From assembly GCA_029573975.1 (NCBI GenBank), contig JAKQBU010000371.1:1-7457 (forward strand): DNA of 7,457 nucleotides, in the 5' to 3' direction. The DNA is from Planctomycetota bacterium (GTDB lineage Bacteria; Planctomycetota; Phycisphaerae; Sedimentisphaerales; SM23-30). Within the stretch, counting starts at the first letter, position 1. Every line of letters begins with the position of its first letter. A model generated the notes under the pieces. It did no database searches, was not told where the DNA came from, and saw only the letters and a list, made by a program, of their open reading frames with translations. Shown here in pieces: positions 1,480 to 7,457 of the stretch. A program made the position numbers and the translations under genes.

Positions 1480-1779
1480 ATGACCCAGCATAACCATAGA
1501 AAGGTGCGGCTGTTTTTGACGCTGGCGGTGCTGGCGGCGGGAGTGCTTTTGTTGCTCTATGGTGCATTCTTCGGCAGCCGGCCGGTCGTCAAGGGGCCGG
1601 TGGGCGAACTGCCGCCAATACCGATTGCCGATGCCGGACCGCGGGATGATGTTTTGCAGGTGTCCGAATTTGCCCTCGTAAAAGAGGTAACGGTCGGCGG
1701 GGTCATCCGGTGGGACAATGGGATGCTCCAGCGGACCTATGGTGAGACGGAACGGCCCGCCTCCTTCTGCCCTACCTGA
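1480..1779 (+). CDS. Small single-pass membrane protein ending Cys-Pro-Thr-TGA; candidate selenoprotein (then ends at TAA 1788)
   Basis: Read conventionally this is a 99-residue protein. It has a short basic N-terminus, one hydrophobic segment (about residues 11-32) and a C-terminal part that should face the periplasm, with a conserved-looking patch KEVTVGGVIRWDNGMLQRTY (68-87) and the end SFCPT. I do not recognise a named family. The TGA at 1777-1779 is followed in frame by GTA AAG TAA. If it were read as selenocysteine, the protein would be 102 residues ending Cys-Pro-Thr-Sec-Val-Lys, a CxxU redox motif near the C-terminus. In support, selD and selC lie immediately upstream on the same strand, and a hairpin follows the TGA at SECIS-like distance. 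Against, the ordinary reading is simpler and no homolog could be compared. The start ATG at 1480 is preceded by a weak GAGTGAG. The gene begins 16 nt after the tRNA end, and the next gene starts 18 nt after the TGA, suggesting co-transcription and a joint function with the iron-sulfur protein. Confidence 0.8.
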   Translation: MTQHNHRKVRLFLTLAVLAAGVLLLLYGAFFGSRPVVKGPVGELPPIPIADAGPRDDVLQVSEFALVKEVTVGGVIRWDNGMLQRTYGETERPASFCPT

Positions 1780-1811
1780 GTAAAGTAACAGAAAGTCATG
1801 GTGTCCATGGC
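1777..1811 (+). promoter_or_regulatory. Candidate bacterial SECIS: TGA plus downstream hairpin
   Basis: After the TGA at 1777-1779 the RNA can fold GUCAUGG (1795-1801) with CCAUGGC (1805-1811). This gives 7 bp with one U-G pair, closed by the triloop UGU (1802-1804). The loop begins 22 nt after the TGA and has G as its second base. This agrees with the general bacterial SECIS pattern as I know it: a stem of at least 4 bp, a G in the first two loop bases, and the loop about 16-37 nt after UGA. There is no bulged U as in the E. coli fdhF element, and the triloop is small. The hairpin also covers the start codon of the next gene, so it could instead be a translation-control hairpin or chance. 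Confidence 0.42.
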
Positions 1812-2628
1812 CCCCAAAAACGGATTCGCGAAAAAACTGCTCGCCTGGCGCGTCTGGGTGCAGGCGGGCTTTCTGCTGGTGTGGCTGGACCCGCTGACGC
1901 TGCGTCTGCACAGCTTTTGTGCTCCCGTCTTTCACTGTTACGCCTGCCCGCTGGCGACCTTTGCCTGTCCGATCGGCGTGCTGGCCCACTTCAGCGCCCT
2001 GCATGTGTTTCCGTTTGTCGCGCTGGGGATACTGGTGGTGGCGGGCGGGATCTTTGGCGGCTTTATCTGCGGCTGGGCCTGTCCGTTCGGCCTGCTCCAA
2101 GATTTGGCGGCGAAAATTCCCATCCCGAAACTGAAAATCCCGCATCGGGCGGGTTTCCTGCGATATGTAGTGTTGGTCGGCCTGGTATTTGCGATTCCTT
2201 ATCTATGGGGGGCGGAGCATCCCCTGTTTTTCTGCAGCGTCTGCCCAGCCGGCGCCCTGGAGGCGGCGGCTCCGAATATGGTCTCGCAGGCGGCTGCGGG
2301 TTCGGCGGTCATCTGGCCCAATACCATCAAGCTGACGGTTACACTGGTGCTGCTGGCCGCGATCTTTTTCATTCACCGGCCCTGGTGCCGATTGCTCTGC
2401 CCGCTGGGGGCCATCTTTGGCCTGTTCAACCGCATCGCCGTCTTCTTCCTGCGGTTTGATCCGGCGGCCTGCATTGACTGCGGCGTCTGTCATAATAAAT
2501 GCACGCTGGCCATCCCGCCTGATAAAAATCCCGGCGCCACCTCCTGCATCCGCTGCCTGGAATGCACCCGCTGTCCCACCGGCGCCCTCCAGCCAGGCAG
2601 CCTAATCCCATCCCAAACAAAAGATTAA
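1798..2628 (+). CDS. NapH/MauN/RdxA-like membrane 4Fe-4S protein (polyferredoxin)
   Basis: This 276-residue integral membrane protein belongs to the NapH-type 4Fe-4S family, which moves electrons between quinol or ferredoxin-type donors and periplasmic or membrane redox partners. Hydrophobic segments lie near residues 18-36, 70-98, 121-137, 178-193 and 203-218. Cys motifs in order are C41, C47-x2-C50-x6-C57, C91-x3-C95-P, C146-x2-C149-P and C197-x3-C201-P, the duplicated family signature. Two ferredoxin clusters follow at the C-terminus (C225, 228, 231, 235 and C250, 253, 256, 259). Length is normal for the family. The start ATG at 1798 has only a weak ribosome site (AGAAAG); ATG 1807 is an alternative in the same frame. 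The gene follows the small membrane protein closely and both probably form one redox unit. Its stop codon overlaps that of the converging gene. The electron acceptor is unknown. Confidence 0.9.
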   Translation: MVSMAPKNGFAKKLLAWRVWVQAGFLLVWLDPLTLRLHSFCAPVFHCYACPLATFACPIGVLAHFSALHVFPFVALGILVVAGGIFGGFICGWACPFGLLQDLAAKIPIPKLKIPHRAGFLRYVVLVGLVFAIPYLWGAEHPLFFCSVCPAGALEAAAPNMVSQAAAGSAVIWPNTIKLTVTLVLLAAIFFIHRPWCRLLCPLGAIFGLFNRIAVFFLRFDPAACIDCGVCHNKCTLAIPPDKNPGATSCIRCLECTRCPTGALQPGSLIPSQTKD

Positions 2629-3875
2629 TTGGGAATTTTCCCGATCTCCTCCGCCAGCTTATCTATCGCAAAACCTTCCGCCCGTACTACCTGCTGGCGG
2701 TCGGTCAGAATCAGCCACGGCAGGGCCTTCACGCCCCAGGCGAATTTGGTTTTGTCGGGCCGGTCTTTCAAAACGCCAACGGCAAACGGGATCTGGTATT
2801 TGGCAATCCATTCATCGAGGTCCTTTTGTTCCATTGGTTCGGCCTGCACCAAGGTAACGACTACATCCTTTGTTTTTAATTCCCCCGCTTTTTTGACCAA
2901 TTCTTCTACATAATGCCGCGACGGCCGCTGGTTCAGATCGCAAAAACAGACCAGTACCGGACGATCTTTCTTTTCGTTCGGTTCCACGGAAAGATTTAAA
3001 GATTCTGTTTCCGGCAGGGTTTTACCCAACAGGGAACCGACTATCTCCAACTTGATTTTGACCTCGGTCTTATGACCCGGATCCAGCGAAACATTATGGA
3101 AGGTAATCCAATAATTATACGGCCGCTTCTGAAACTCAAAATGATCTATATTACTCATATGAAAATTCATAAAGCGATAAATATACCGTATGAGTCCGGG
3201 ACTTTTTCCTCCCTCATTTCTGCTCACGGCAACTGGTTGCGAGTCCTTAGCCACAAGGAGAAGCCGGGTGGCCTCATCCATAATCGTTTGTGTGATCTCG
3301 GCTACCACATCCTCCCCCTTTTGCTCCGGACATCGCATAATCACCGGTTCGGAACTAGGGAAAAAACTATCCTCTGGAGTAGCCATATCCCAGAAACTCC
3401 ATTTTTGTGCCACCTGCCATGGTCCTGTGGCGATTTCGATCCGGAAGTCTCCCTCCTCTTGCCCTGGATCAAACCGCAAAACAAATCTTCGTAAATCATT
3501 TGTTTCAAAACCTTTTCCCTTCCTCACGACTGGCTGCATATCTAAATCTTCACTCCAAAGATTATCGGCTTTACAGCTGTAATCGCCTGTTCCTCGCAAA
3601 CATAATACAAAGAAATAGCTGCCTCTCCATGATGTTGTCCAATTTCTCTCATCGGGTGCTGTCTGCAGCAAAGTTCCATCGGGCCGCCACCAAATATAAT
3701 TGCCATCCTGCTTGAATTTCGGGACGCCAGCCATGCAATAGCGTAATCCGATCAGTTCCACCATGGTACCATCTGGTAATTTCACGGAAAATTCTGGCTG
3801 GGAAACTTTAGTTTCCGCAAATGCCAGGCCAACGGCTGACACAACAGATAGTACATAACATGCCCATCGAAACAT
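2625..3875 (-). CDS. Secreted protein with unknown N-terminal domain and C-terminal degenerate thioredoxin-like module
   Basis: The product has 416 residues, starting at ATG 3873-3875, which has a good ribosome site 6 nt upstream. The frame is open to 3935, but that longer start would overlap the preceding gene and bury the signal peptide. The N-terminus MFRWACYVLSVVSAVGLAFA is a signal peptide, probably cleaved after AFA. Residues about 25-275 form a domain I do not recognise, beginning with FSVKLPDGTMVELIG and IWWRPDGTLL, probably mostly beta strand. Residues about 281-416 are a thioredoxin/redoxin fold (VLVCFCDLNQRPSRH, then ALPWLIL with the cis-Pro at 386). The usual CxxC is Gln316-Arg-Pro-Ser319, while Cys310 and Cys312 form CFC just before it. 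A classic disulfide oxidoreductase activity is therefore unlikely. It is the last gene of a three-gene run whose products share this C-terminus. Confidence 0.85.
   Translation of the reverse strand: MFRWACYVLSVVSAVGLAFAETKVSQPEFSVKLPDGTMVELIGLRYCMAGVPKFKQDGNYIWWRPDGTLLQTAPDERNWTTSWRGSYFFVLCLRGTGDYSCKADNLWSEDLDMQPVVRKGKGFETNDLRRFVLRFDPGQEEGDFRIEIATGPWQVAQKWSFWDMATPEDSFFPSSEPVIMRCPEQKGEDVVAEITQTIMDEATRLLLVAKDSQPVAVSRNEGGKSPGLIRYIYRFMNFHMSNIDHFEFQKRPYNYWITFHNVSLDPGHKTEVKIKLEIVGSLLGKTLPETESLNLSVEPNEKKDRPVLVCFCDLNQRPSRHYVEELVKKAGELKTKDVVVTLVQAEPMEQKDLDEWIAKYQIPFAVGVLKDRPDKTKFAWGVKALPWLILTDRQQVVRAEGFAIDKLAEEIGKIPN
2628..3035 (-). repeat. Thioredoxin-like module, copy 1
   Basis: This is the coding segment for the ~135-residue C-terminal module (SLLGKTLP onward) of the 416-residue protein. 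It is one of three copies on the - strand. Bases 2762-2816 are identical over 55 nt to 4041-4095 in copy 2, including third codon positions, pointing to recent duplication or gene conversion. Confidence 0.85.
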
Positions 3876-3881
3876 AATCTG

Positions 3882-3889
3882 CCTCTCCT
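3882..3889 (-). promoter_or_regulatory. Ribosome binding site fixing the start at 3875
   Basis: On the - strand AGGAGAGG lies 6 nt before ATG 3875-3873, in the 25-nt gap after the upstream stop (3901-3903). It supports the shorter 416-residue start, whose first residues form a signal peptide. Confidence 0.75.
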
Positions 3890-3900
3890 GTGCAAAACGG

Positions 3901-6225
3901 TTAGTTCGGCCTAACTCCCTGAATTTTTTCCTCAAGCTCCGTTACGGTAAATCCTTCTGCTTGAACGACATGCTGCACATCAGTCAGCATCAGCCAGGGG
4001 AGGGCCTTTACGCCCCAGTCGAATTTGGTTTTGTCGGGCTGGTCTTTCAAAACGCCAACGGCAAACGGGATCTGGTATTTGGCAATCCATTCATCCAGGT
4101 TCTTCTGCTCCATCGGCTCTGCCTGTACCAGCGCTACCACCACACCCTTACCTTTCAATTCTTCCGCTTTCTTCACCAGTTCCTGCACCGTATGCCGCGA
4201 CGGCCGCTGATTCATATCGCAGAAACACAGCAGCACCGGCTGATCCTTCATGGCGCCGGGGTCCACGGCTAGAGACAGGGCCGTCATATCCGGCAGGGCC
4301 TTGCCCACCAGCGAGGCCGGCTCCTTGGGTACCTGCCTGGACATGAACAGCAGTGGCCTGGTATTACTCTCCTTCATTACAATCTTTACATCCGTCACGC
4401 CCCCTTCGGTTTCTATGTTGCCGCGCATCGGTTTTGTCCCCACAAAATCGGCCTGAATATTAAGTTTTCCTTCACAAACGTGCAGTGTGAATTTCCCTTG
4501 TTCATCTGTTTGGTAATTACCAAGGTCCGGCTGGCCGTCGCCATAGCCATAGATATTTGCCCCGGCGACTGGCTGATCCTCCGCATCCACTACCACTCCC
4601 GTTAAAGTCAGGTTGGCCAGTTTCAAGACCAGTGTACCAACGTCCAGGCGGCCGTTTACCGCCTCATCAGCGTGTACTTCTTTTCGAGTCTTGCCATATC
4701 CTTCTGCATTTGCCTGGAAGAGGTAATCATACTCCGCAGGGATCGCTTTCGCCTCAAAATATCCTTCGTCATCCGTTATGACACTGCTGTCTGAATCTAT
4801 GCCGGCGCGCCAATTGGGGAAGCACAGGATTAGTTTTATCCTGGCATTAGGAATTTCTTTTCCATCCGGGTCCACTACCCGGCCGTTACCAATAACACCC
4901 GGCGATACGGTCACATATGGAACTTGGTTATCCTCCGGAATTTCCATTATGGCTGCCAGATTTCGTTCATACTGCCGGGCGACCAGATAGCTAGTCATTT
5001 TATTTGCGCCCCCCAACCTCCAGGGATCCCAACGAACCTCAAACTTCCCTTCCCGATCCGAGCTGGCACCCTTATTTTGTACCGGACAAACCATAACCTG
5101 TGCCCCCTCCACCGGCTGGCCAGCCTGGTCCTGTACCATACCGGCCAGCTTCAACCACGCCGCCGCTCTGTCCCGGACCCTGGGATCCTGAATTTTACCC
5201 CAGAAAAGATTTTCCCCCAGGATTTCCTCTTTGCTGATCTTTTCTCCGGTACTGGGGGCAATCACCGCCTCCACCGGCGTCGAGTCACAAGTATAAAAAT
5301 CCGTCCCGGTACCCACGGCAAAATCGATGGTATCCCCGGCTTTCAGTGCCACCGTCAGATCAAAGGCCCTGGTTTCACTTTCATCCGGCTGGCAGAATAA
5401 GACCCCGGTTTGATTCTGAATAACATAATAATCACAATTACCTTGATCGCCGGCACAAAAGGTACCATATATCATATATTGCCCCTGTTGCGGCGCCGTC
5501 CAGCGGGCAACGCTGAGCCGTCTCATTTCACCGCCGCCGTGCAGGGTAACCATTCCCGGTGGAGTACCAAAGTGAAACCCGGATGAAACGTTGAAATGAA
5601 TGGCAGGCACAAATAGCTGGTGTCTTGGCAAAAAGTGCCACATAGGAAGGTCGGGATATATGAAAACAATGTCAGTATAAAGCTTGAATTCGGTGGTATC
5701 TGGTTTGGCGGCATCGGCTGGTTGGGGTGAGTGGCCATAGGACCACACATCGTTGGGATTTTTTCCCTCTTTCCATATGGGGTGGGAGGAATCGGCATTG
5801 ACCGCATCAAGAACCATATCCTTCCGCAGACTCCAGTATTTCCAGGGGGAAGGGCCGGAGCCAGCTTGATCCACAGCCGCAGGGCTGTGGTCCAGTACCG
5901 TGAAATCTTTGAATTTCAATTCCTGACTGAGCTTCAGCAGATAATTTCTCAGTAACTCCACTTCCGCCGGCGGCAAGGTCTCGGTCTGCGCCCCGAACCG
6001 GAGTTCGACCTTTTCCCGATCCTGCACCTGCGACAGGATGGCCGGCAGATCGGTGAGGGCAACTTCGATCCCTTCCACGGTTATTTTTCCCTCACTGCCC
6101 AATATCACTGTTATGGAGTCATTGGTATCAGCATTATCACTCTGGTCGGCCTGCCCGACACCGGCATATAAAAAGACAGAAAGAATCGCCAACACAACTA
6201 CCATAAGACCTCTTCGTTTCCGCAT
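3901..6225 (-). CDS. Large secreted multidomain protein: carboxypeptidase-regulatory-like repeats and degenerate thioredoxin-like C-terminus
   Basis: The product has 774 residues, from ATG 6223-6225 behind a strong AAAGGAAGG site; a TTG start 18 nt upstream would lie on top of that site. Residues 1-26 are a signal peptide ending GQA. Residues about 36-110 (ITVILGSEGKITVEGIEVAL...) resemble the periplasmic domain of ExbD/TolR, a weak match by eye. Residues about 235-325 look like a secreted beta-sandwich (VARWTAPQQGQYMIYGTF ... AGDTIDFAVGTGTDF), with cysteines that could form disulfides. Residues about 358-430, 440-535 and 538-620 are three CarboxypepD_reg/CNA-B-like beta repeats (for example GVVVDAEDQPVAGANIYGYG). 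Residues about 638-774 are a thioredoxin fold with CFC (667-669) and QRPS (673-676) replacing CxxC; the cis-Pro is at 743. The last ~400 residues closely match the upstream gene product. It is likely a cell-envelope or periplasmic protein; the substrate is unknown. Confidence 0.88.
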   Translation of the reverse strand: MRKRRGLMVVVLAILSVFLYAGVGQADQSDNADTNDSITVILGSEGKITVEGIEVALTDLPAILSQVQDREKVELRFGAQTETLPPAEVELLRNYLLKLSQELKFKDFTVLDHSPAAVDQAGSGPSPWKYWSLRKDMVLDAVNADSSHPIWKEGKNPNDVWSYGHSPQPADAAKPDTTEFKLYTDIVFIYPDLPMWHFLPRHQLFVPAIHFNVSSGFHFGTPPGMVTLHGGGEMRRLSVARWTAPQQGQYMIYGTFCAGDQGNCDYYVIQNQTGVLFCQPDESETRAFDLTVALKAGDTIDFAVGTGTDFYTCDSTPVEAVIAPSTGEKISKEEILGENLFWGKIQDPRVRDRAAAWLKLAGMVQDQAGQPVEGAQVMVCPVQNKGASSDREGKFEVRWDPWRLGGANKMTSYLVARQYERNLAAIMEIPEDNQVPYVTVSPGVIGNGRVVDPDGKEIPNARIKLILCFPNWRAGIDSDSSVITDDEGYFEAKAIPAEYDYLFQANAEGYGKTRKEVHADEAVNGRLDVGTLVLKLANLTLTGVVVDAEDQPVAGANIYGYGDGQPDLGNYQTDEQGKFTLHVCEGKLNIQADFVGTKPMRGNIETEGGVTDVKIVMKESNTRPLLFMSRQVPKEPASLVGKALPDMTALSLAVDPGAMKDQPVLLCFCDMNQRPSRHTVQELVKKAEELKGKGVVVALVQAEPMEQKNLDEWIAKYQIPFAVGVLKDQPDKTKFDWGVKALPWLMLTDVQHVVQAEGFTVTELEEKIQGVRPN
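3904..4314 (-). repeat. Thioredoxin-like module, copy 2
   Basis: This encodes SLVGKALP to the C-terminus of the 774-residue protein. It is nearly identical in protein sequence to copy 3 and highly similar in DNA, for example CCACGGCTAGAGACAGGGCC near 4262 and again near 6617. It shares the 55-nt identical stretch with copy 1. Confidence 0.85.
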
Positions 6226-6231
6226 ATCGTG

Positions 6232-6240
6232 CCTTCCTTT
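6232..6240 (-). promoter_or_regulatory. Ribosome binding site fixing the start at 6225
   Basis: On the - strand AAAGGAAGG ends 6 nt before ATG 6225-6223, within the 29-nt gap after the preceding stop. It makes the in-frame TTG at 6243 unlikely as the start. No terminator or promoter is visible in this gap, consistent with an operon. Confidence 0.75.
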
Positions 6241-6254
6241 CAAATCGGGTCATC

Positions 6255-7457
6255 TTAATCGGCCGGAAGAGCCTGTATCTTATCGTTTAGTTCACCCACC
6301 GTAAATCCTTCCGCCTGAACCACATGCTGCTTATCCGTCAAAATCAGCCAGGGCAGGGCCTTCACGCCCCAGGCGAATCGGGTTTTGTCGGGCTGGTCTT
6401 TCAAAACACCAACGGCAAACGGAATCTGGTACTTTTTTATCCATTCATCCAGATCCTTCTGCTCCATCGGCTCTGCCTGTACCAGCGTTACCACCATGCC
6501 CTTACCTTTCAATTCTTCCGCCTTCTTGACCAGTTCCTGCACGCAATGCCGGGAGGGCCGCTGGTTCATGTCGCAGAAACAGAGCAGGACCGGATGGTCC
6601 TTCGTGGCGGCGGGGTCCACGGCTAGAGACAGGGCCGCCAGATCCGGCAGGGCCTTGCCCACCAGCGAGGCCGGCTCCTTCGGGACAAACCGCCCATCCG
6701 ATCCTGCTTCACTGACCACGATCTTCACCTCCGCCACGCCCCCTTCCGTCTCGATACTGCCTCTCAGCCGTTTGGCTCCCTGGACATTGGCTTGAATATT
6801 GAGCCTTCCTTCGCAGACCTTCAGGGTAAATTTCCCCTGTTCATCCGTTTTGATATTATAGAGATCCGGCTGGCCATCGCCATAGGCGTGGATGTCTGCG
6901 CCAGCAACTGGTTTATCCTCCTCATCCACCACCACCCCCGTCAGGGTCAGGTTCGCCGGTTTCAACGTCAGCGTCCCAGCATCCAGCCGGCTGTCCACCG
7001 CATCTTCGGTCCGAACTTCCTGCCGCGACTGCCCATAGCCGTCCGCATTGGCGTAGATATCGTATTTGTGCTCCGGCGGAATCGCCTGCATTTCAAAATT
7101 CCCTTCCGTGTCGGTCATCATCCTTTCATCGCGCAGGCTGGAACCCCAACTGCCGGCCCGCAGCATGACCGTGACATTGGCCCGGTCGATCCCCTGCCCC
7201 TCCGGATTGACCACTTTGCCGCGGAAAACCACGCCCGGCTTCACGGTGACATCCATGGTTTTGGTATCTTTCTGGATTTCCACGGAACCGGCCAGGTTTC
7301 GCTCCTTATGCCGGGCCACTAAATAGTACACGGTAGGCTGATCGGAGCCCCATTCGTCCGGATTCCACTGCGCCTCAAAACGTCCCTCCTTATCCGTCGC
7401 AATCCCCTGCCGGCCCATCGGATACACATTCACCTGCGCCCCCTCCACCGGCTGGCC
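6255..7457 (-). CDS. Carboxypeptidase-regulatory-like repeat protein with degenerate thioredoxin-like C-terminus, 5'-truncated
   Basis: The frame is open to the right edge of the window (first residues seen GQPVEGAQVNVYPMG), so the N-terminus, any signal peptide and earlier domains are missing. The visible 400 residues contain three CarboxypepD_reg/CNA-B-like beta domains (about residues 1-70, 70-165 and 166-250), the last with GVVVDEEDKPVAGADIHAYG, then the thioredoxin-like module (about 264-400). The module again has CFC followed by NQRPSR where CxxC is expected, keeps ALPWLIL with its cis-Pro, and carries an extra Cys just after the motif (RPSRHC). It aligns along its whole visible length with the C-terminal half of the next gene product, so the two are tandem paralogs, and the full protein probably also carries the N-terminal domains seen there. 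It is the first visible gene of the - strand run, 29 nt before the next start. Confidence 0.87.
   Translation of the reverse strand, partial: GQPVEGAQVNVYPMGRQGIATDKEGRFEAQWNPDEWGSDQPTVYYLVARHKERNLAGSVEIQKDTKTMDVTVKPGVVFRGKVVNPEGQGIDRANVTVMLRAGSWGSSLRDERMMTDTEGNFEMQAIPPEHKYDIYANADGYGQSRQEVRTEDAVDSRLDAGTLTLKPANLTLTGVVVDEEDKPVAGADIHAYGDGQPDLYNIKTDEQGKFTLKVCEGRLNIQANVQGAKRLRGSIETEGGVAEVKIVVSEAGSDGRFVPKEPASLVGKALPDLAALSLAVDPAATKDHPVLLCFCDMNQRPSRHCVQELVKKAEELKGKGMVVTLVQAEPMEQKDLDEWIKKYQIPFAVGVLKDQPDKTRFAWGVKALPWLILTDKQHVVQAEGFTVGELNDKIQALPAD
6258..6668 (-). repeat. Thioredoxin-like module, copy 3
   Basis: This encodes SLVGKALP to the C-terminus of the truncated protein. It has the same length as copy 2 and similar DNA throughout. 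Duplication between the two genes extends beyond the module: about 3904-5130 corresponds to 6258-7457. Confidence 0.85.

Follow-up and report, generated by a model that had tools for sequence, protein, structure and literature searches.

In bacteria that encode selenocysteine, SelB delivers Sec-tRNA to a UGA codon adjoining a SECIS element. In mammalian thioredoxin reductase the selenocysteine lies next to a flexible C-terminus. A close described system among small membrane proteins is the CD1871A family (NF040920), comprising single-helix proteins of about 44 amino acids with a C-terminal pair of cysteines two residues apart (CXXC), followed by IGIG and the stop codon. These proteins, taken as Cys-type and not Sec-type, can be encoded directly upstream of NapH-like genes, as in loci L149 and L152. 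Proteins of the NapH/MauN ferredoxin type (TIGR02163) are membrane proteins with a Fer4_5 domain and C-terminal Cys motifs. According to the available part of PMC1088965, the bacterial SECIS is a hairpin downstream of the UGA with a small apical loop containing G. Bacterial selenoproteins carrying a CxxU motif and a SECIS downstream of the UGA (GrdA, SelW-like, AhpD-like and others) are collected in Table 1 of PMC13188914, as far as the accessible portion of that paper goes, and planctomycete selenoproteins are reported in the available text of PMC4807772. Methods independent of SECIS rely on Cys homologues, and SECIS-based ones miss atypical elements (PMC12013277, available part).

The DNA stretch analyzed here as a whole (7,457 nucleotides of contig JAKQBU010000371.1 from a Planctomycetota bacterium; hereafter the window) encodes a small membrane protein of a kind annotated as stopping at TGA and, judging from the comparison of sequences, very probably extended by selenocysteine and about two further residues. 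The open reading frame at positions 1480–1779 of the plus strand codes for 99 amino acids with a single N-terminal hydrophobic (transmembrane) stretch and ends with Ser-Phe-Cys-Pro-Thr at the TGA codon 1777–1779, followed in frame by GTA AAG TAA (Val-Lys-stop) at 1780–1788; direct reading thus confirms this part of the first-pass annotation. If UGA is read as selenocysteine, the gene occupies positions 1480–1788 and its product comprises 102 residues with the C-terminus Cys-Pro-Thr-Sec-Val-Lys. The AlphaFold model of the small protein is of low confidence (pLDDT 69.6).

Only two genes of the selenocysteine pathway are located within the window, both immediately upstream and on the same strand, as had been claimed: selD (3–1280, its 5′ end cut by the window; TIGR00476, 301.6 bits; TIGR00778, 40.9 bits; Pfam AIRS, AIRS_C and CMD) and the tRNA-Sec gene selC (1368–1459; Rfam RF01852, 72.6 bits), assigned by ARAGORN to 1368–1463 as tRNA-SeC with anticodon TCA. 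A Cys-rich linker (CCQKPPAPKESPACC...) joins this SelD to an AhpD/carboxymuconolactone decarboxylase (CMD) domain, and the fusion protein may handle selenium by thiols.

The NapH-like neighbor proposed for the small protein is present downstream, at 1798–2628 of the plus strand, with candidate starts at 1798, 1801, and 1807. This membrane 4Fe-4S protein contains the Fer4_5 domain and C-terminal Cys motifs and matches TIGR02163 with an E-value of 3.2e-12, but its score of 46.5 bits is far below the cut-off of 213, and it differs from that family in an N-terminal HCYACPLATFACPIG stretch and in its linkage to selenocysteine genes. No PDB relative was found by sequence at E 0.01. In the closest relative, L001 (contig JAKJEP010000059.1, G001:C554:8346-9172), the NapH-like gene is broken across two frames, possibly owing to a sequencing error at low coverage. 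The minus strand of the window at 2625–7457 encodes three exported-looking proteins with a common C-terminal CFCD(M/L)NQRPSRH stretch; two were tested against Pfam, both containing a redoxin domain and one carboxypeptidase-regulatory-like repeats. In 16 of 39 large loci, relatives of the window's exported redoxin-domain proteins are encoded on the far side of the NapH-like gene, 14 times on the opposite strand.

An initial protein search yielded two relatives beyond the window's own protein, and genomes were then searched with the TGA open. At E 0.01 or better the gene was found in 32 of 148 genomes around and including G001, a Planctomycetota MAG. With alignment A1 at E 0.001, the positive genomes numbered 47 of 161 in the order to which G001 belongs and 9 of 392 in a sample of the phylum. 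Fifty-five distinct loci, including the window and a relative 95% identical to it, were read as DNA; L040/L087 was first left out, and L087 was then counted as the 55th. Outside this set are the second-type copies in L078 and L081, L038/L085 (where the contig ends before the site), weak spurious rows of L009/L053, and the later-found forms in L145, L146, L148, L153, L154, L132, and L106 (second copy), all with TGA; where the left-out sequences extend as far as the site, it is never TAA or TAG.

Every one of the 55 loci carries TGA at this position, following C-x-T in 53 and C-x-S (CFS) in two; homologues with C-x-T at TAA or TAG, which would have spoken for an ordinary stop, are absent from these loci. 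The next in-frame stop comes two codons after the TGA in 52 loci, one codon in two and three codons in one. As to the expected conservation after the TGA, it is the length of the tail that is conserved, not the identity of its residues (GS in 13 loci, VK in 5, PG and GT in 4 each, and others). The Cys, the Thr and the Sec position are invariant across the 30 rows of A1, an alignment with no further conserved Cys or His in the tail, and the motif is retained where the remainder of the protein has diverged (L077, L079, L080, and L082; L145, L148, and L154).

A profile search of the protein database returned 246 matches. The 120 matches listed and three proteins from the first search, 123 in total, all end exactly at C-x-T, as expected since gene callers would cut at UGA, and their own stop codons are not visible there. 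Named entries among the matches listed are "hypothetical protein" of Planctomycetota, Phycisphaerae, Phycisphaerales or Sedimentisphaerales. Neither the 55 loci nor the 123 database proteins contain Cys at the Sec position, so that the Cys codons hoped for in Sec-less genomes did not appear and the classical Sec/Cys-pair criterion has no Cys partner to draw on; a Cys homologue is a search criterion and not part of the definition of a selenoprotein. Within the sequences read, the family looks Sec-only.

Stop codon usage around the gene provides a control. Open reading frames of at least 150 amino acids in the large loci end with TGA in 155 cases, TAA in 92 and TAG in 70 (n = 317). The two-codon tail is present in 51 of 54 family loci versus 4 of 153 non-family TGA-ending frames, the latter being the 154 usable control frames less L088, a family member. 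A perfect stem of at least 7 bp is found nearby in 46 of 54 family loci versus 41 of the 154 control frames (L088 included), and the stems of the remaining eight family loci (L009, L020, L018, L006, L074, L005, L076, and L037) are mismatched or shorter. Since 41 control frames also have such a stem, it is weak evidence when taken alone, and the weight is carried by the combination of features together with covariation. Another genetic code, with TGA as an amino acid throughout, was ruled out because TGA terminates the window's selD and also 18 of the 49 NapH-like partner genes whose end could be read.

The hairpin reported at a SECIS-like distance is present at 1795–1811 of the plus strand (GUCAUGG-UGU-CCAUGGC), with a 7 bp stem and the loop UGU, whose central G at 1803 lies 24 nt after the UGA. 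It is located beyond the selenoprotein's own stop (1786–1788) and extends over the region in which the NapH-like gene starts. Far from lacking conservation, the family stem of 8 bp has 91.0% of cells paired and two-sided changes at 7 of 8 pairs in 54 sequences, 53 of them distinct. The covariation score of 0.399, compared with a shuffle mean of 0.260, was reached by none of 500 shuffles and falls to 0.03–0.17 when the structure is slid by 1–3 columns; the tested structure was derived from the same 54 sequences and these are related, both of which favor it. RNAalifold recovers six of the pairs unprompted. The loop column contains G in 54 of 54 rows, 19–26 nt after the UGA (21 to 26 nt in 53), and in L006, L011, L074, L037, L039, and L041, where the true loop is offset from the alignment as seen by eye or in single folds, it still has G. 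The family hairpin thus has the SECIS feature given in the available part of PMC1088965, a stem downstream of the UGA and a small loop with G. Single-sequence folds are not exceptional relative to shuffles (z -0.63 for the window, +0.87 to -1.68 for ten sequences), and the weight of the hairpin comes from covariation over the 54 sequences and not from the fold of the window.

A search of 12 genomes with the SECIS model R1 recovered the gene itself in ten at E <0.001. The own hit of G102 was weak (E 0.16) and the own gene of G209 was missed, indicating that R1 does not see divergent forms. A further match (G070:C155, 29.6 bits) proved to be a second-type copy, and six weaker matches in these genomes (E 1 to 5) had no gene of the selenoprotein's kind.

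The distribution of the gene follows that of the selenocysteine machinery. Of the order's 161 genomes, 43 have a tRNA-Sec gene that scores at the Rfam threshold or above, and all 41 with a score of at least 55 bits encode the selenoprotein (Fisher 3e-32); SelB exceeds its cut-off in 44 genomes, 38 of which carry the gene (Fisher 5e-22), both tests ignoring kinship and assembly gaps. Two genomes have tRNA-Sec at 47–48 bits, G062 with the selenoprotein gene and G532 without it. The SelB-positive genomes lacking the gene are G003, G119, G126, G139, G535, and G542, and NapH-like matches are present in G119, G535, and G139. Among the 47 gene-bearing genomes, 41 have tRNA-Sec of at least 55 bits and 38 have SelB over the cut-off; nine are without the latter, six without the former and three (G062, G086, and G138) without both. 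In G001, a near relative with an assembly split into many contigs, no SelB was found over the cut-off.

A similar linkage is seen at the level of individual loci. In 52 of the 55 loci the selenoprotein gene has a NapH-like gene downstream within 2 kb. At E 1e-35, the order has NapH-like matches in 51 of its 161 genomes and the phylum sample in 19 of 392. Genes for tRNA-Sec were found in 33 of the 41 short loci scanned, on the strand of the selenoprotein gene in 32 (L039 being the exception). In the 39 large loci, clustering of open reading frames, which misses some genes, identified the NapH-like gene in 33 and SelD in 19. The most extended arrangement is that of L090 (10046-15110, minus strand), in the order methyltransferase-like gene, double-cubane reductase (NF040772, 418.5 bits against a cut-off of 350), two weaker relatives of this reductase, CoA-dehydratase-type activase (TIGR00241), SelD, selenoprotein and NapH-like protein; selA diverges next to the methyltransferase-like gene, and tRNA-Sec was seen in L003, which is the same place as L090. 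The order in L084, with names assigned by clustering with L090 and by reading, is selD, selA, Sec-selD, double-cubane relative, selenoprotein, NapH-like gene and selB.

Thirteen further loci were read upstream of more distant NapH-like genes, which come from 19 of the 392 phylum genomes. Here Sec forms missed by the profile were found: CPTU in L145 and L148, CSTU in L154, SFTU in L146 and CTAU (Cys-Thr-Ala-Sec) in L153; by reading, selB is located directly upstream in L148 and L153. CD1871A-type proteins precede the NapH-like genes in L149, L152, and L158, with model scores of 38.5 bits in L152 (cut-off 32) and, just under it, 31.4 bits in L149. The CD1871A-type genes of L149 and L152 end in TGA too. 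No C-x-T-C form occurs in these 13 loci, and no small partner was recognizable directly upstream of the NapH-like gene in L143, L144, L147, L151, and L155; in L151 (G181) a Sec-type SelD is encoded directly upstream of the NapH-like gene, with no recognizable small partner between them. In second-type copies Gly replaces Cys and the hairpin is kept (GGGU in L106 near 12308, GAIU in L078 and L132, GSTU in L081), and L146, with Ser in place of Cys, also retains the TGA and a SECIS-like hairpin. The motif is therefore not fixed everywhere: Cys is missing from L078, L081, L132, L146, and the second copy of L106, and L153 reads Cys-Thr-Ala-Sec. In L078 and L132 TAA comes straight after the TGA.

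The best explanation, to which we assign a probability of about 0.85, is that the gene encodes a single-pass membrane selenoprotein with C-terminal Cys-x-Thr-Sec and about two further residues, decoded with the aid of a SECIS past its own stop, and that this protein takes part in a putative selenylsulfide relay to the NapH-like protein. The selenoprotein part of it is strongly supported by the comparative evidence. UGA would be decoded by SelB and tRNA-Sec, aided by the short hairpin. Basic residues preceding the helix suggest that the C-terminal tail is exposed on the outer, periplasm-facing side of the membrane, where Cys and Sec could form a reversible selenylsulfide. Gene order and motifs point to exchange of electrons between this selenylsulfide and the co-encoded NapH-like 4Fe-4S protein, and the electrons may be handed over to extracytoplasmic thiol proteins, for which the exported redoxin-domain proteins encoded nearby are candidates. 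Such a relay would act as a Sec version of the CD1871A-type pair of small CXXC protein and NapH-like protein, and overlap of the SECIS with the partner's start region could couple translation of the NapH-like gene to Sec insertion.

One alternative takes the TGA for a genuine stop codon, with Cys-Pro-Thr as the C-terminus, and sees in the hairpin a palindrome or a translation element belonging to the region where NapH starts. In its favor, 36 of the 52 loci with a readable NapH-like gene have one of that gene's in-frame ATG or GTG codons within the hairpin, and the window hairpin alone is of unremarkable stability. In the other 16 loci, however, no such start lies inside; the distance from the UGA to the next one is 52 to 903 nt (with an additional GTG at +8 in L079), and the hairpin is nevertheless kept, as judged in L087 by eye only; a role as NapH start element was therefore ruled out as the whole story. 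A true stop would also leave unexplained why TAA and TAG are absent from 55 loci when TGA accounts for just 155 of 317 nearby stops, why the two-codon tail is conserved and why presence of the gene tracks tRNA-Sec, and we consider this reading very improbable.

Other alternatives accept the selenoprotein and assign it a different function. Together with the NapH-like protein, the double-cubane reductase and SelD it could reduce or deliver selenium for selenophosphate synthesis, or report selenium status, as the position of the gene among selenium genes in L090 and L084 would suggest. This role would be circular if the protein, as the sole selenoprotein of some genomes, only fed its own synthesis, and the sel genes may cluster merely because the selenoprotein is their main customer; we regard it as doubtful, though the most serious of the competing proposals. 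NapH and NosR relatives function with metal centers, and Cys-x-Thr-Sec might accordingly bind a metal, iron-sulfur or copper center instead of cycling as a selenylsulfide, which would agree with the persistence of TGA and hairpin in second-type copies without Cys. The lack of further conserved Cys or His in the tail and the frequency of CxxU as a redox motif in the accessible Table 1 of PMC13188914 make metal binding unlikely.

In comparison with known systems, the selenoprotein shares its single helix, a C-terminal pair two residues apart and its NapH-like neighbor with CD1871A proteins, but none of 30 A1 members matched NF040920 at E 1, and the NapH-like proteins linked to CD1871A are more distant (40–41% identity to that of the window); the CXXC proteins with these partners are a possible Cys-type counterpart. 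With mammalian thioredoxin reductase it shares Sec near the C-terminus, but it is membrane-anchored and has no flavin domain, and we know of no homology between the two. NCBIfam gave no usable match for 30 members (best E 0.019) and Pfam none for the window's protein at E 0.1. Judged by names, domains and motifs, the 119 selenoprotein families in the available part of the 2026 table (PMC13188914) include none that combines small size, a single membrane pass and a Sec placed two residues before the C-terminus with a NapH-like partner. Among the titles and abstract starts listed in searches of the open-access PMC literature, none names the family, and overlap with candidates in the supplement of PMC4807772, which was available in part, is possible.

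These results add a selenoprotein family that Sec/Cys-pair methods would overlook, since Cys homologues are not seen and the Sec is only two or three positions away from the C-terminus. They also offer an answer to the question of why Sec-encoding planctomycetes keep the trait. Formate dehydrogenase alpha (TIGR01553) exceeds its cut-off in none of the 41 tRNA-Sec genomes, the weaker matches in 14 of them having no internal TGA, and a motif scan showed SelD in the Cys form in all 16 of these genomes where its start was read; SelD outside the 16 is of the Cys form in G426 and G240, of one Cys and one Sec form in G209, and of the Sec form in G181. The Cys-x-Thr-Sec protein is therefore a leading candidate for the reason why this lineage keeps selenocysteine. 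A bolder proposal remains tentative and, in our estimate, rather improbable as a whole: the protein and its NapH-like partner would together form a transmembrane electron relay that is new and depends on Sec, and this pair would explain, in some genomes perhaps on its own, why the Sec machinery is maintained, with the SECIS also coupling translation of the partner to Sec insertion. As the SECIS overlaps the start codon, a selenium-dependent coupling of the two genes can be tested directly. Since selenocysteine is here joined to the uncharacterized pair of small CXXC membrane protein and NapH-like protein, work on either system would inform the other.
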